From: Desulfoscipio gibsoniae DSM 7213
GTDB lineage: Bacteria > Bacillota > Desulfotomaculia > Desulfotomaculales > Desulfallaceae
Direction: 5' to 3'
Length of the DNA: 64,000 nucleotides
Assembly: GCF_000233715.2 (NCBI RefSeq)
Contig: NC_021184.1
Span: 2,752,001 to 2,816,000, forward strand
Below the pieces are notes generated by a model. That model had not been told where the DNA came from, did no database searches, and saw only the letters and a program-made list of their open reading frames with translations. A program made the position numbers and the translations under genes. Below, in pieces: positions 4,024-41,638 of this stretch; the first letter of the stretch is position 1, and every line of letters starts with the position of its first letter.

Positions 4024-5217
4024 TTAAGAAACCTTTACAACCAGAGCTGCACCGGTATCTCCGGCCGCACATCCTGTAAACAGCCCGTAACCACCGCCAA
4101 GGATAACTAACTCTTCAATCATTTCAATAATTCCACGACCAGCGGTAGGTCCCTGGGGATGCCCGTAAATAAGAGAACTGCCGTAATTATTGAATTTCAT
4201 AACATCGACATTCAATTCCTTGGCCAAATACAAATCATTAGCGGCAAATGGGTTATGTGTCTTAATGGCCTTTACATCCTTAACGTCAATGCCAGCTTTT
4301 TCCAGAGCCATTTTCGCCGCAGGTGCCACGGCCATAGCCATATGAGCTTTTTCCGCGCGGGCAAAACCATAGGAAAGTATCTGTATTTCTATATTTTGAT
4401 CATCACTAAGTTCTTTTGCTTTTTCCTTGGTGCATACAACAACCCCACAGTTGCCATCAGCCGGGTGGGTTTGGGCGCCAAATGAGTGCACCCCTCCCTC
4501 AATAACCGGTCTTAATTTGGCCAGTCCTTCCTTGGTTGTTGGAGATACACCTTCATCGGCTTCAAGCAATGCAGTTACCTTTTTATTCTTCTTATATTCC
4601 GCCGGGAACATGTAGCGCTTCTGGAATTTCCGCTCGTTAGCCAGGGCATCCTGGTACTGCTCATAACGCCTATATGCCACCGCATCACAATCTTCCTTGG
4701 TGATACCGCCCACCTTTTTAACTACGTTTTCTGCCGTTTGAATCATTGGAACTTTTCCATATGGGTCGTAGTTAAAGTTATCCATCATCCAGTTTTCCGA
4801 AATCACTTCTCCACCAGGGCCTGCGGAATTGGGCCAGATAGTGTGTGGGCCATTTGAACAGCGATCGGTCATAAGGCAAAATGCATTTTCATATTGGCCA
4901 GTCTCGACGCCCGCCGCCGCCTGGTTTATGCAGGTCGTGGATGTAGAACAGGCCTGTGGAATATGGCAACCCGGGATTCCATCAGCTCCTATTAGGGCAG
5001 CCGCCCAGGGGCCGGCATAAAAAGTATGCAATTGTCCGATGGTTTTCCCTAAAAAGAGATATTCAAACACTTTCGCATCAATGTTTTTTGCTGCCATCCA
5101 TCTTTTGGCTGTTGCCGCCGCTAATTCAATGGCATTTTCATTTTGCAGGCAACCCTGCCAGCGGGCAAAAGGGGAACTAAAATATGCCCGGTAAGGAATA
5201 AAAGCCTTGGAGTACAT
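4024..5217 (-). CDS. Thiolase family protein, 397 aa
   Basis: Predicted acyl-CoA acetyltransferase-type enzyme cleaving 3-oxoacyl-CoA with CoA. The nucleophilic cysteine lies in PQACSTSTT near residue 89. The C-terminal catalytic histidine sits in YGHPQGPTAGR and the second cysteine in FTGCAAGDTGAA. The usual NEAFA asparagine motif is replaced by THNPFAAND, and the region after it reads NNYGSSLIYGHP instead of the canonical NVNGGAIALGHP, so it belongs to a divergent thiolase subfamily rather than the classical acetoacetyl-CoA thiolases. A GGAGG ribosome site precedes the ATG. It lies between the acyl-CoA dehydrogenase and hydroxyacyl-CoA dehydrogenase genes, so the thiolytic step of that pathway is the best assignment. 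Confidence 0.82.
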   Translation of the reverse strand: MYSKAFIPYRAYFSSPFARWQGCLQNENAIELAAATAKRWMAAKNIDAKVFEYLFLGKTIGQLHTFYAGPWAAALIGADGIPGCHIPQACSTSTTCINQAAAGVETGQYENAFCLMTDRCSNGPHTIWPNSAGPGGEVISENWMMDNFNYDPYGKVPMIQTAENVVKKVGGITKEDCDAVAYRRYEQYQDALANERKFQKRYMFPAEYKKNKKVTALLEADEGVSPTTKEGLAKLRPVIEGGVHSFGAQTHPADGNCGVVVCTKEKAKELSDDQNIEIQILSYGFARAEKAHMAMAVAPAAKMALEKAGIDVKDVKAIKTHNPFAANDLYLAKELNVDVMKFNNYGSSLIYGHPQGPTAGRGIIEMIEELVILGGGYGLFTGCAAGDTGAALVVKVS

Positions 5218-5318
5218 AAATATACCCTCCTTATTTTTTATTTAATTATTTATTAATTACTTAATTTAAATATAGTAATAATATTTAGCTGTTTAAAGTG
5301 TGTGATGCTTTAAGCAAG

Positions 5319-7073
5319 TTACACCACATACTTGCCGGCTTCTGAAATAGCTGCGGCAATCTCCTGTCTAAGAGCTATGGTGTTTCTTGGAGTATACCGG
5401 GACAGCATCTGTAAATTTTCCAGCAAGCTGGTCAGCTCATTACCGTCAGCAAGGGCAGCCAAGGTTTCTCCTGCCACATAGACCATAACACCAAATGTTG
5501 AATTGATGTAGGCTTTAGCCATATTCATTTTAAGCTTTGATCCGGCCTCATCCTCATTAACCATTGATTTTTGAGCACGGAGCCAGGCGCTTTCCATTGC
5601 AAAGGTCATAATCGCCAAATCCGCCAGTTTGCCCAGTATTTCTTGTTGCTTATTCAAGCCGTCTCCATATTTCTGAAGCCCGGCATCTATGGTCAACAGG
5701 AATATTTCCTTTGCTGCCTGCACGAGGTCCACTTCCCCTTCTCTGGCCGGAATTCCGCTGGAAAGTTGGCCCCGGAGTCTTTCGATTGCTTCCTGGAGGG
5801 GCAAATCTCCTTTGGCCGCCCGGCGCAGCAAAGTAATGGGAATCAGGCTGCGGTTAATTTCGTTGGTTCCTTCAAAAATACGATAAACCCTGGCATCCCT
5901 GTACAGTCGTTCTATGGTATATTCAGAACTATACCCGTATCCACCATGAACCTGTACCCCTTCATCAACACAATACGCCACAACCTCGGTGGCAAAGACC
6001 TTGTTCATAGAGCATTCCAGGGCATATTCTTCTATACCCTTGGCAGCAACCCGGCCCCCGTCTTCACCCGAGGTATCCAGGCTATGCAGCATATTTTCAA
6101 GCAAACCTCCAGTACGATAGAGCATACTCTCGGCCGCGTAAATTTTAATTGCCATTTCGGCCAGTTTTTCTTTAATTAATCCAAAATTAGCAATGGGTGT
6201 CTTAAACTGTTTTCGATCATTGGCATAGGTAGCAGACAGTTCCAAGGCAAACTTGGCGTGGCCCAAAGAGTTTGCGGCCAGTTTATAACGGCCTAAATTC
6301 AGGATATTAAATGCTACTACGTGGCCCTTGCCAATTTCAAATAATAAGTTTTCCACCGGTACTTTTACATCTTCTAAAATTAGGGTTCTGGTGGAGGAAC
6401 CTTTGATGCCCATTTTCTTTTCTTCCGGCCCGGTGGACAGTCCTTCGGAATCACCGTCTACAATAAAGGCAGTAAATTTATCACCGTCTATTTTGGCGTA
6501 AACTATGAATACATCTGCCATGCCGGCGTTAGTGATAAATTGTTTGGTTCCGTTTAAAATATAATATTTGCCGTCTGAACTTAAAACAGCCTTGGTCTTG
6601 ATCGCCATTGCGTCTGAACCTGCTTCAGGCTCGGTCAAAGCGTAAGCGCCAATTTTTTCAGCGCTGACTATTCCGGGTAGATATTGTTTCTTCTGCTCAT
6701 GGTTACCGAAAAAAACGATTGGCATACTGCCGATACCTGTTTGACCGCCCTGGGTCATGGCAAAGGAACCGGCTCGCCCCATACACTCGGCAATAATAGT
6801 GGAGCTGATTTTGTCCATTTCCATACCGTCATACTCTTCTGGAATATCGGCTCCCAGTAAACCCAACTCTCCACAAGCCTCTAAGAGTTCTCTGATTATA
6901 CCTTCCTTCTTGGATTCAAGTTCTTCCATTCTGGTTAAGATGTTATCGGTAACAAATCCTGCAGCAGTACGGAAAATCATAATATGTTCATCGGTAAAAT
7001 CCTCGGGAGTGAAGATATTTTGGGGATCGGTTTGACCGAAGATATAGCTTCCCCCCTTGGGCAAGTTGCTCAA
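5319..7073 (-). CDS. Acyl-CoA dehydrogenase, long form, 584 aa
   Basis: FAD enzyme introducing the alpha-beta double bond in acyl-CoA. Family signatures are YALTEPEAGSDAMAIKT, KQFITNAGMADVF, GIKGSSTRTLILEDVKVP, and the C-terminal VQVHGGYGYSSEYTIERLYR region, where a Glu in EGTNEINR fits the catalytic base. At 584 aa it is longer than the 380-aa enzymes and resembles the B. subtilis FadE type with a C-terminal extension. The start is placed at a TTG (7073) because GAGGTGG lies 5 nt upstream; a GTG at 7082 would overlap that ribosome site. It is upstream of the thiolase and downstream of the enoyl-CoA hydratase. Electrons presumably pass to an electron-transfer flavoprotein encoded elsewhere. 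Confidence 0.9.
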   Translation of the reverse strand: MSNLPKGGSYIFGQTDPQNIFTPEDFTDEHIMIFRTAAGFVTDNILTRMEELESKKEGIIRELLEACGELGLLGADIPEEYDGMEMDKISSTIIAECMGRAGSFAMTQGGQTGIGSMPIVFFGNHEQKKQYLPGIVSAEKIGAYALTEPEAGSDAMAIKTKAVLSSDGKYYILNGTKQFITNAGMADVFIVYAKIDGDKFTAFIVDGDSEGLSTGPEEKKMGIKGSSTRTLILEDVKVPVENLLFEIGKGHVVAFNILNLGRYKLAANSLGHAKFALELSATYANDRKQFKTPIANFGLIKEKLAEMAIKIYAAESMLYRTGGLLENMLHSLDTSGEDGGRVAAKGIEEYALECSMNKVFATEVVAYCVDEGVQVHGGYGYSSEYTIERLYRDARVYRIFEGTNEINRSLIPITLLRRAAKGDLPLQEAIERLRGQLSSGIPAREGEVDLVQAAKEIFLLTIDAGLQKYGDGLNKQQEILGKLADLAIMTFAMESAWLRAQKSMVNEDEAGSKLKMNMAKAYINSTFGVMVYVAGETLAALADGNELTSLLENLQMLSRYTPRNTIALRQEIAAAISEAGKYVV

Positions 7074-38638: not shown

Positions 38639-39061
38639 TCATTGCTTTGTCAAATATTTTGTTATATACTGGCAAAACAGCTCAAAATCACTCAATTTCG
38701 TCTGCAATATATCATAAAGCTCCGGTACAGTAACCTTGTTATACTCATGCATCAAACGGTTCCGGTAACCAGCCATTCCTGTAATCTCATGACAAAAATC
38801 TGCCGGTAATATATCCTTTTCACTTAACATGGCAATAACGGACCGGTAATCATGAGGTATACCCGCCCCGGATTTAACTGCTATATGACGACCTAAATCA
38901 AATAACGCTTCCAGTGCTTTACGCAACCTGTTTTCAGCAATATCCTGGGCATCCTCATTACCCTGAAAATCTTCCAAAGACATGCCTGTCAATGCCTTTA
39001 ATCGTAAAACCGAAGAACGTATTAATTCCAGTCTTTCAGTTATCAACTGCTGATTAAACAA
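38639..39061 (-). CDS. hepT: HepT-like HEPN toxin (DUF86), 140 aa
   Basis: The toxin part of a MntA/HepT-type pair. The HEPN ribonuclease motif R-x4-H-x-Y is intact as RNRLMHEY near residues 102-109. The sequence is alpha-helical throughout, as expected. The TTG start has GGAGGG 8 nt upstream, within the end of the antitoxin gene, so the genes overlap by 8 nt and are translationally coupled. In studied systems the antitoxin adenylylates the tyrosine of this motif. Confidence 0.88.
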   Translation of the reverse strand: MFNQQLITERLELIRSSVLRLKALTGMSLEDFQGNEDAQDIAENRLRKALEALFDLGRHIAVKSGAGIPHDYRSVIAMLSEKDILPADFCHEITGMAGYRNRLMHEYNKVTVPELYDILQTKLSDFELFCQYITKYLTKQ

Positions 39062-39476
39062 ACAAATTTCCCTCCATTATCTCTTCATAATATTCCCGGC
39101 GGGCAATTTCCAAATGATATTTAAAGTCAAGATACTCCCTGGTAATATTATCTTCAAAATCGGTGCGCCGGTCAGCATCCGCACAGTAAATCACTTTTCC
39201 CGTACTAATGATTTCAAAGCACAGGGGCAACCCCACCGAATGCATAAACAAAAGATCCACTTCCAAAGGAGCAAAGACTTTTAATAATGCCGGGTAAAGT
39301 GCAACATATAAATCTACGTTACTTTGAGGCGGACTGTTAAAAAGCAATGCCAAATCAACATCCCTCGGTTCGAGAACCTTTTCGTCCAATGATGAACCAA
39401 AAAGATAAACAGCCACTATTTGCTTATACTGTCCTATAATATCCGCTAGTTTTTGCATGTCGAATTTTAACCTCAC
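39054..39476 (-). CDS. mntA: MntA-like nucleotidyltransferase antitoxin, 140 aa
   Basis: A minimal nucleotidyltransferase with the GSX10DXD motif intact: GSSLDEKVLEPRDVDLALLF near residue 27. It precedes and overlaps hepT. In characterised systems such proteins AMPylate HepT at the Rx4HxY tyrosine to neutralise it. The start at 39476 (GTG) has AGGTGG 5 nt upstream; a GTG three codons earlier (39485) and an ATG six codons later are alternatives. The pair lies between the FmdB gene and cooS. Confidence 0.87.
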   Translation of the reverse strand: MRLKFDMQKLADIIGQYKQIVAVYLFGSSLDEKVLEPRDVDLALLFNSPPQSNVDLYVALYPALLKVFAPLEVDLLFMHSVGLPLCFEIISTGKVIYCADADRRTDFEDNITREYLDFKYHLEIARREYYEEIMEGNLFV

Positions 39477-39724
39477 GTTATCCACCTGTACTTAAACATT
39501 TTAGTAATAATAATTAATTATATCTGTATTATGATACTTTGCATATACAATTTATTGTAAACATCATAACCTAACACGGCACCATTGAAGATAAGTACTT
39601 GTTTGTTAGTTTTTATGATAACGGACACCACCTGTTACATATAGCTTATTCCCTTTGGCGAAGTATGCATAAAATACCTCTCAATTTAAAAAAATAAATT
39701 AAACTTTGCAAATGGAGGTATCTT

Positions 39725-41638
39725 ATGCCAAGGGAAGCAGTACACCGGGTAGATGGTCGCATCAGCGTCCATGATTCAGTGCAAGAAATGTATGAACGCA
39801 TACACAATGATGGCCTCAGTAACGTATTTGACCGCTATGATCCCCAATCCAAAATTCGCTGCGGGTTTTGCGTGGAAGGTGTAAGCTGCCAGCTTTGCAC
39901 CGGCGGACCGTGCCGCATCTCCGACAAGGCGGGGGCCACGCACGGCACTTGTGGCATAGACCGCAACGCCATGGCCATGCGGGACATGTTACTTCGCAAT
40001 ATGATGGGCACATCCACTTATACGCATCATGCCTACAACGCCTTTCGCACGTTAAAATCCACGGCGGAGGGTAAAACGCCTTACCAAATTACCGACACCA
40101 ACAAGCTTTACTGGATGTGTGACAAGCTGGGTATTGATAAAAGCGGCAGCCTGGAACAAACCGCCATCCGCCTGGCGGACTTTTTAATGTATCAGCTCAG
40201 CAGTGGATACGATGAACCACCGAAAATGGTAGAGGTTTTTGCCCCTGAGCCTCGGAAAAAACTGTGGAGGGAATTGGCTATTTACCCGGCCGGGGTAATG
40301 CATGAGATAAAGGATTCCGCGGCCAGCTGCCTGACCAACGTGGACGGTGATTTCGTTTCCATGGCCAAAAAGGCACTGAGACTGGGGATTGCCACCATTT
40401 ACGGTTCACAAATCGGGCTGGAAATGGTGCAGGATATTTTATTCGGTACGCCATCACCCCACGAGGTACAAGTGGACTTGGGGATTATGGAACCTGATTA
40501 TGTCAATATAGTCTTTAATGGTCATGAACCATGGATTGGTGTGGCCTGTATTTTAGCCGCCAAGGACCCGGCCAATCAGGAAAAGGCCCGTCAGGCCGGG
40601 GCAAAGGGCATCAAGGTAACGGGGTCAATCGAGTGCGGCCAGGAAGTGCTGCAGCGATTTGCCATGGATGAAGTTTTTAACGGACTAACCGGTAACTGGA
40701 TGGCCATTGAGCCGCTGCTAGCCACCGGGACCGTCGACATATTCGCCATGGATGAAAACTGCTCCCCCCCGTACATTGCACCTTACGCTGAAAAGTACCA
40801 GATTACCATGGTATCAGTAAACGATCTGGTACGTATACCGGGAGTGGAAAAGAATTTTGACTATAAACCACCTGAAGCCGCCAATACAGCCCGCCAGCTT
40901 ATTGACTGGGGTATAGAAAACTATAAAAAGCGCAAGGAACGTAATATCACAGCCAAAGTACCCAACAAAGTGCAAAAGGCCATAGCCGGTTTTTCCACCG
41001 AGGCTGTGCTAAACGCTCTGGGCGGCAAATTGGACCCGCTGCTGGACGTAATCAAAGCCGGTAAAATCAAAGGTGTGACAGCACTGGTGAACTGCACCAC
41101 CCCGGCCACCGGCCTTCATGACTATATGACCGTGAACGTAGCCAAGGAGCTAATTAAGCGGGATATACTGGTGATCAGCGGCGGTTGCGGCAACCACGCC
41201 CTGGAAGTGGCCGGTTTATGTAACACTGACGCTGTAGCCATGGCCGGTAGCGGGCTGCAGGAAATTTGTAAAGCACTGGGCATCCCCCCCGTGCTGAGCT
41301 TCGGCACCTGCACGGACACCGGGCGCATGTCCATGCTGGTAACGGAAATCGCCAATGCCCTGGGTGTGGACACCTCCGATTTGCCGGTGGCGGTTACCGC
41401 ACCCCAGTACCTGGAACAAAAGGCCACAATCGATGCAATTTTTGCACTGGCTTTCGGGCTATATACCCACCTGGCTCCCACCCCCCCCGTAACGGGAGGT
41501 CCGGAGCTTGTAAAACTATTGACCGAAGATTTGGAAGGCTTAACCGGCGGCAAAGTAGCCCTGGCTGACACACCGGCAAGCGCCGCGGACGGTATTGAGG
41601 CACATATTATGAAAAAGAGGGCCGGACTGGGTATTTAA
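39725..41638 (+). CDS. cooS: Divergent carbon monoxide dehydrogenase catalytic subunit (CooS-like), 637 aa
   Basis: Full-length homologue of the nickel-iron CO dehydrogenase. The B-cluster cysteines (C55, C58, C63, C76) are present. The D-cluster motif is CxxC (C46, C49) with Ser54 where the CX7C type has its second Cys. C-cluster ligands H267, C346, C457, C488, C529 and the lysine K566 are recognisable by alignment from memory with the C. hydrogenoformans enzyme. However, the position of its C295 is Glu303, with a Cys one residue later (ECGQE instead of CTGNE). Of the histidine relay H93/H96/H99/H102, only the second is kept (Y99, H102, N105, R108). No cooF, cooC or acetyl-CoA synthase genes lie nearby. 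GGAGG lies 6 nt before the ATG. CO oxidation should not be assumed. Confidence 0.88.
   Translation: MPREAVHRVDGRISVHDSVQEMYERIHNDGLSNVFDRYDPQSKIRCGFCVEGVSCQLCTGGPCRISDKAGATHGTCGIDRNAMAMRDMLLRNMMGTSTYTHHAYNAFRTLKSTAEGKTPYQITDTNKLYWMCDKLGIDKSGSLEQTAIRLADFLMYQLSSGYDEPPKMVEVFAPEPRKKLWRELAIYPAGVMHEIKDSAASCLTNVDGDFVSMAKKALRLGIATIYGSQIGLEMVQDILFGTPSPHEVQVDLGIMEPDYVNIVFNGHEPWIGVACILAAKDPANQEKARQAGAKGIKVTGSIECGQEVLQRFAMDEVFNGLTGNWMAIEPLLATGTVDIFAMDENCSPPYIAPYAEKYQITMVSVNDLVRIPGVEKNFDYKPPEAANTARQLIDWGIENYKKRKERNITAKVPNKVQKAIAGFSTEAVLNALGGKLDPLLDVIKAGKIKGVTALVNCTTPATGLHDYMTVNVAKELIKRDILVISGGCGNHALEVAGLCNTDAVAMAGSGLQEICKALGIPPVLSFGTCTDTGRMSMLVTEIANALGVDTSDLPVAVTAPQYLEQKATIDAIFALAFGLYTHLAPTPPVTGGPELVKLLTEDLEGLTGGKVALADTPASAADGIEAHIMKKRAGLGI

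Follow-up and report, generated by a model that had tools for sequence, protein, structure and literature searches.

In the window, by which we mean the whole 64,000-nucleotide stretch of the Desulfoscipio gibsoniae genome analysed here, an ATG-initiated open reading frame encodes a CooS homologue of 637 residues, with a ribosome-binding-like site just ahead of it (Table 1). The product matches the Prismane/CO dehydrogenase family in Pfam and scores 831.9 with the curated NCBIfam CO dehydrogenase (CODH) model TIGR01702 (cut-off 478), a model that gave no sign of separating structural group D-1 from the others. With the hybrid-cluster protein (HCP) model TIGR01703 it reaches 48.1 bits, far below the cut-off of 360.8, and it does not belong to HCP by that measure. 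When the protein was compared with those of solved structure using phmmer, the best match was CooS-V of C. hydrogenoformans (PDB ID: 7b7q; E 7e-283, residues 12-637 of the window protein), and the next sequence was a true CODH with an E-value of 9e-119. The AlphaFold model, built with 32 aligned rows (pLDDT 91.7, pTM 0.92), agrees with this, as its structural match to 7b7q gave a rmsd of 1.0 over 626 columns with 64% identity, against 1.9 for the next different protein (PDB ID: 6t7j), while identity to the CODH-II structures was 31%. Very probably, then, the gene is a close relative or orthologue of C. hydrogenoformans CooS-V, and encodes a hybrid-cluster enzyme of that type rather than a CODH.

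Table 1. Positions of the features discussed; entries without a locus number lie in the window, and CooS-V equivalents are after PMC9311411.
Feature	Position	Strand	Basis
Probable CooS-V-type hybrid-cluster protein (Prismane/CODH family, clade D structural group D-1), 637 aa	39725..41638	+	
Ribosome-binding-like site GGAGG, 6 bases 5' of ATG	39714..39718	+	read directly from sequence
Cys46-x2-Cys49, type III D-cluster (subunit-bridging [2Fe-2S] in CooS-V; CooS-V Cys41)	39860..39871	+	homologue alignment
B-cluster [4Fe-4S] motif CX2CX4CX12C: Cys55, Cys58, Cys63, Cys76 (CooS-V C47/C50/C55/C68)	39887..39952	+	homologue alignment
Tyr99, His102, Asn105, Arg108 (CODH-II sites H93, H96, H99, H102)	40019..40048	+	homologue alignments
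His267 (CooS-V His259, CODH-II His261)	40523..40525	+	homologue alignment
Glu303, predicted hybrid-cluster ligand at the place of Cys295 (CooS-V Glu295)	40631..40633	+	ungapped alignments
Cys304, separate Thr/Ser-to-Cys change beside Glu303	40634..40636	+	alignments, tree
Cys346 (CooS-V Cys338)	40760..40762	+	homologue alignment
Cys457 (CooS-V Cys449)	41093..41095	+	homologue alignment
Cys488 (CooS-V Cys480)	41186..41188	+	homologue alignment
Cys529 (CooS-V Cys521, persulfide cysteine)	41309..41311	+	homologue alignment
Glu564 (CooS-V Glu556, HCP Glu494) and Lys566	41414..41422	+	alignment; roles from papers
HepT/MntA pair, upstream of the gene	38639-39485	-	
HepT/MntA pair, downstream of the gene in G013	L165 7832-8666		
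cooS-V remnant, G014	L167 6360-7085		
cooS-V remnant, G012	L168 about 5109-5506		
Glu-type CooS-V homologue of G201	L137 4430-6394	-	
Second clade D homologue, Cys295-bearing	L021 and L024, 455-2311	-	
Multihaem cytochrome gene after Glu-type cooS (archaeal contigs, Methanoperedens and relatives)	L021, L024, L026, L028, L036		

Genomic setting and persistence of the gene

Both genes that flank the window cooS are on the opposite strand, leaving it as a lone gene. Family assignments, made for nine neighbours with Pfam and for ten open reading frames with NCBIfam, place an aminotransferase, a zinc-ribbon protein, and a HepT toxin/MntA antitoxin pair on one side, and an amidohydrolase, a class II aldolase, an S-adenosylhomocysteine hydrolase, an IF-2B-family protein, and a phosphorylase on the other, with no known CO gene among them. 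A preliminary description of this DNA had stated that cooF, cooC, and ACS genes are missing nearby, and indeed none was seen by eye among the frames of at least 80 residues around 33-49 kb or of at least 120 residues around 22-34 kb, the sole ferredoxin-like neighbour being NuoI-like according to NCBIfam; a neighbourhood with such genes is common among Ni-Fe CODHs, though not required. Over the 98 homologue loci that share the Glu303 trait (Glu type, below), with 537 neighbouring frames, no family recurred in more than 10 loci, a result that is a lower bound, since flanks are short at many loci, and no conserved operon was found for the window copy. Between 36 and 48 kb nothing matched Rfam at gathering score, and the promoter-like sites (4, against 3.7 in shuffled sequence) and terminator-like sites (6, against 3.7 with a standard deviation of 1.9) between 39.4 and 42.0 kb are indistinguishable from chance.

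Genome-wide there are five genes of CooS type, a shorter HCP-like one, matched in two stretches of a single 462-codon frame, and, at 4.79 Mb, a Prismane fragment of 45 positions. Three ACS (CdhC) genes lie at 0.51, 1.22, and 2.10 Mb, beside the other cooS genes (0.5, 1.2, and 2.1 Mb), and the nearest is about 690 kb from the window gene. In the account of D. gibsoniae Groll(T) given in passages of PMC4148979, three cooS genes adjoin ACS genes and two others are listed as Desgi_2753 and Desgi_3080; the order and spacing of the genes make Desgi_2753 the probable identity of the window gene, and for this locus tag no other paper was found in the literature searched. The same passages take multiple cooS genes with neighbours such as ferredoxin or acetyl-CoA pathway genes as a sign of possible growth on CO, and note that no growth test had yet been carried out.

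Three of 16 genomes from the family have an intact copy (96-100% identity), namely the window genome (G000), G013, and G015, all within one genus group of seven. Two further genomes of that group, G014 and G012, keep only remnants, which lie between the ylxM/ffh and amidohydrolase genes, and another two, G010 and G011, gave only distant CODH matches. The remnants show a gene on its way out in part of the genus, and these four of seven genomes are what could speak for a decaying, functionless gene in the window lineage as well. This is highly improbable, however, for the frame is intact, every cluster residue is kept, and dN/dS against the two intact congeneric copies is 0.027 and 0.031 (0.027-0.038 among all three), which rules out a pseudogene; the window frame is real and under purifying selection. 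As a separate observation, the HepT/MntA pair lies upstream of the gene in the window and downstream of it in G013, and was not found in G015, where the stretch ends about 1 kb past the gene, so that this module seems to have moved around the cooS-V gene.

Cluster residues and the Cys295-to-Glu change

Site names below are those of CODH-II, in part after PMC9311411, and the alignment rows are homologues other than CODH-II itself. The homologue alignment comprises 141 rows out of 170 matches, with duplicates and pieces left out, and at site 295 it has glutamate in 98 rows (Glu type) and cysteine in 43 (Cys type). The letters that the preliminary description had listed as unusual (Tyr99, Asn105, Arg108, Glu303, and a CxxC D-cluster in which Ser54 occupies the second CX7C position) are all correct, as is its statement that the other C-cluster ligands and the lysine are kept (His267, Cys346, Cys457, Cys488, Cys529, and Lys566). 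To these we add Glu564, which it left unmentioned. With a constant offset of +8, all ligands named for CooS-V (PMC9311411) are present in the window protein. In the Glu-type rows, the residues His267, Cys346, Cys457, Cys488, Cys529, Glu564, and Lys566 are complete in 96 of 98, one of the two exceptions being truncated and the other, L137, having lost the set, and the CxxC cysteines of the D-cluster are found in all 93 rows that cover them.

What did not hold is the proposal of a rearranged C-cluster in which the cysteine has shifted by one residue. Against the solved CODHs and against the homologues alike, Glu303 falls in the Cys295 column with no gap nearby (in the AlphaFold model, a helix begins at residue 302), and the column that follows has Thr in 78, Ser in 14, and Cys in 6 of the Glu-type rows, and Thr in 35 of the 43 Cys-type rows. 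A shifted ligand is ruled out by the ungapped alignments and the 98 homologues, and what is seen instead is a replacement of Cys by Glu plus an independent change of Thr/Ser to Cys. The idea that the protein is a working Ni-Fe CODH, with Cys304 standing in for Cys295, could draw on the score with TIGR01702 and on the retained histidine, four cysteines, and catalytic lysine, yet with Thr or Ser after the glutamate in 92 of 98 rows a cysteine is not needed at this place, and the acid-base histidine is a tyrosine (Tyr99). Moreover, neither CODH activity nor Ni was detected in CooS-V, and the C295E variant of CODH-II produced in E. coli was Ni-deficient and did not oxidise CO (PMC9311411). We consider such a CODH scarcely credible.

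The further suggestion that most of the histidine relay is missing is true of this protein, where only His102 (H96) is retained and Tyr99, Asn105, and Arg108 take the places of H93, H99, and H102, but it is not a special feature. Where the rows reach H93, tyrosine is found there in all 95 of the Glu type and in 21 of 42 of the Cys type, while the Glu-type rows show seven different residues at H99 and five at H102, with histidine at neither; the Tyr, Asn, and Arg are therefore ordinary in this group. According to PMC6344411, tyrosine at H93 is also found in clades C, most of D, and G, and does not by itself exclude a CODH.

A quick tree of 119 of the 141 rows, computed with six trait columns excluded and containing some long rows, places all 84 Glu rows on one side of a branch with an SH-aLRT of 100, such that glutamate versus cysteine at site 295 is a single change. 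The window protein lies inside this Glu clade, to which the named CooS-V sequence, not itself a tree row, is linked by pairwise identity. When it comes to the Glu-Cys pair, which had been put forward as a possible clade marker, only the glutamate lives up to this: the six rows with the pair (the window genome, G013, G015, G193, G267, and G140) require at least three changes, forced by the starred branches, although these could be one gain and two losses, and G291, from the genus group of G267, has Ser after the Glu. A coherent Glu-Cys clade is thus ruled out, and the informative change (Cys295 to Glu) can be told from the uninformative one beside it. Cys304 most probably is no ligand, but a neutral change or one in the second shell. 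That it has a function next to Glu303, where it would bind as an additional, exchangeable ligand or carry a persulfide and give the hybrid cluster a state or redox potential unlike that of CooS-V, we regard as improbable. Since the Cys-bearing rows nearest the Glu clade already carry Glu564, this residue would predate the Cys-to-Glu change, if the root is outside this group.

Structural group D-1 is defined by glutamate for the first C-cluster cysteine, tyrosine for the acid-base histidine, a retained lysine, and a type III D-cluster (PMC6344411). The window protein has all of the D-1 traits, including the glutamate at site 295, the one histidine and four cysteines, the HCP-like glutamate (CooS-V Glu556), the lysine, the CxxC motif, and the tyrosine. 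It is not a new kind of enzyme, as D-1 was described in 2019 (PMC6344411) and the structure of a member was solved in 2022; and since CooS-V is a known CODH look-alike with an Fe-S-O cluster and no CO oxidation, the oddity of the gene is real, but already explained.

Other departures were noticed among the homologues. In three D-2-like rows with Asn at H93 (L162-L164, from G166, G134, and G218), the order of the pair is reversed, with Glu coming after Cys295 (CEGQ), compared with Glu-Cys in the window. Archaeal loci L021 and L024 each have, on the strand opposite the Glu-type gene and about 3.7 kb from it, a second clade D homologue (45% identity) that bears Cys295. In the Glu-type homologue L137 (59% identity, an open frame of 654 codons) the four hybrid-cluster cysteines are replaced by Ser, Gly, Ser, and Ser, and Glu564 by Asp, with all six cysteines of the B- and D-clusters intact. 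No other row among the 98 is like it. A match was found in six of the nine genomes of its family, and the other five matches retain the cysteines. Its dN/dS against four relatives is 0.046-0.087 (the fifth pair was not computable), with synonymous sites near or at saturation, and these ratios show no more than that its evolution has not been neutral throughout. Going by its residues, L137 is possibly a cluster-less CODH scaffold.

Predicted chemistry and possible roles

CooS-V carries a Ni-free [4Fe-3S-nO] hybrid cluster, which in the oxidised form is [4Fe-2S-S*-2O-2H2O] and on reduction becomes [4Fe-3S], with the opening of a gas channel; CO oxidation, CO2 reduction, and Ni were all undetected (PMC9311411). 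It reduces hydroxylamine slowly, with a kcat of 0.13 per s and a kcat/KM of 20 per M per s, and its reduction of NO was not above background (PMC9311411). By homology, we infer for the window protein the same fold and clusters, the same absence of CODH activity, a slow reduction of hydroxylamine, and redox morphing, with high confidence as regards the hybrid cluster and the absent CODH activity, and moderate confidence as regards the reductase behaviour. Here, the protein would be a homodimer of CODH fold, with a bridging [2Fe-2S] D-cluster, one [4Fe-4S] B-cluster per subunit, and, where a CODH has its Ni-Fe C-cluster, an Fe/S/O hybrid cluster free of Ni, presumably held by His267, Glu303, Cys346, Cys457, Cys488, Cys529 (a persulfide when oxidised), and Glu564. 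Electrons would pass via the D- and B-clusters to the hybrid cluster, which would be reduced at low potential, upon which the persulfide sulfur would be drawn into the cluster and the gas channel would open. A small oxidised substrate could then bind and be reduced, and the oxidised cluster would close again. CO oxidation by the window protein is not expected. The earlier caution that a CODH name could mislead, and that another cluster or substrate is possible, was right and agrees with the findings for the 64%-identical CooS-V (PMC9311411), but it was already in print for this group.

Our favoured guesses for the physiological substrate are N-oxides such as hydroxylamine or NO, or else a redox-stress signal. 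Given the very slow turnover of hydroxylamine by CooS-V, with its kcat/KM, hydroxylamine may not be the real substrate. This slowness (PMC9311411) is also among the points in favour of a sensor of redox or nitrosative stress, a regulator, or an electron sink, in which the morphing cluster would be the signal and no catalytic reductase would be involved. In line with such a role are the position of the window cooS as a lone gene, the Crp/Fnr-like and Lrp-like genes (named by eye only) that adjoin some homologues, and the regulatory and redox-sensing roles proposed for clade D, 64% of whose genes are not close to any other gene and for which auxiliary functions have been suggested too (PMC13056359, 2026). 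On the other hand, the reduction-gated gas channel of CooS-V suits small substrates (PMC9311411), the window gene has no adjoining regulator gene, and Lys566 and Glu564 are nearly invariant across the group. All told, we deem a sensor or sink rather unlikely, though deserving of attention, and keep to a CooS-V-type enzyme as the preferred reading.

Published observations on CO point in more than one direction. In Clostridium autoethanogenum, a D-1 gene failed to compensate for the loss of AcsA, and genetics in M. acetivorans has been cited as suggesting a role of D-1 in CO oxidation (PMC6344411). In Ca. Methanoperedens BLZ2 under CO plus nitrate, five CooS-type genes rise and two of another structural group are hardly expressed (PMC13079737). 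This genome carries two Glu-type genes (L024 and L030), which may be among the CO-responsive ones, so a link of the group to CO may exist there. For D. gibsoniae, the window cooS should not be counted as evidence for CO use by the organism.

Immediately downstream of the cooS gene, in five of the 21 archaeal loci of the Glu type, a gene on the same strand and 25-114 bases away encodes a protein with 7-8 CxxCH motifs, although at least two of the 21 (L015 and L016) have no downstream frame, their stretches ending soon past the gene. Two of the five cytochromes match Multi-haem_cyto in Pfam, and one, whose NCBIfam matches are below cut-off, has hydroxylamine oxidoreductases (HAO) as its best matches among solved structures (PDB ID: 6h5l, E 3e-35), which is a hint of N-oxide chemistry for Glu-type cooS. 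An HAO-like gene is already named in figure legends on the cooS cluster of Ca. Methanoperedens BLZ2 (PMC13079737, 2026), and the pertinent passages of that paper draw no link to the Glu-type active site. For the function of the CooS-V group, this HAO-like neighbour and the cysteine-less homologue L137 are places to probe.

Comparison with known systems

Canonical Ni-CODHs, such as CODH-II, have in common with the window protein the fold, the B-cluster, five other C-cluster residues, and the lysine, and differ from it in having Cys295 and an acid-base histidine, where the window protein has Glu and Tyr. Closer to it are the clade D Ni-CODHs that keep Cys295, whose D-4-like and D-2-like rows (labels from our own matching to a table in PMC6344411) form the nearest Cys-bearing branches of the tree. 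In these, H93 is already Tyr (or Asn) and site 564 already Glu, but 295 is cysteine and, in the D-4-like rows, the D-cluster is of type II. HCP, the hydroxylamine reductase, has in its classes I-III the same set of active-site residues as D-1, both glutamates included (PMC6344411), with CooS-V Glu295 and the HCP glutamate being unaligned in sequence and equivalent in space (PMC10502027). Unlike HCP, however, the window protein has the length, fold, and D-cluster cysteines of a CODH. The resemblance is greatest with CooS-V itself (CODH-V, group D-1; PDB IDs: 7b7q, 7b7t, 7b95, 7b97, and 7b9a), which has the same ligands, Tyr at H93, and type III D-cluster, and a genomic context likewise lacking an obvious C1 link, as far as PMC9311411 describes it. 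The two differ at Cys304, where CooS-V has Ser, and in their hosts, that of the window gene being a mesophilic sulfate reducer. The window protein is, in short, an ordinary member of a known and already solved group.
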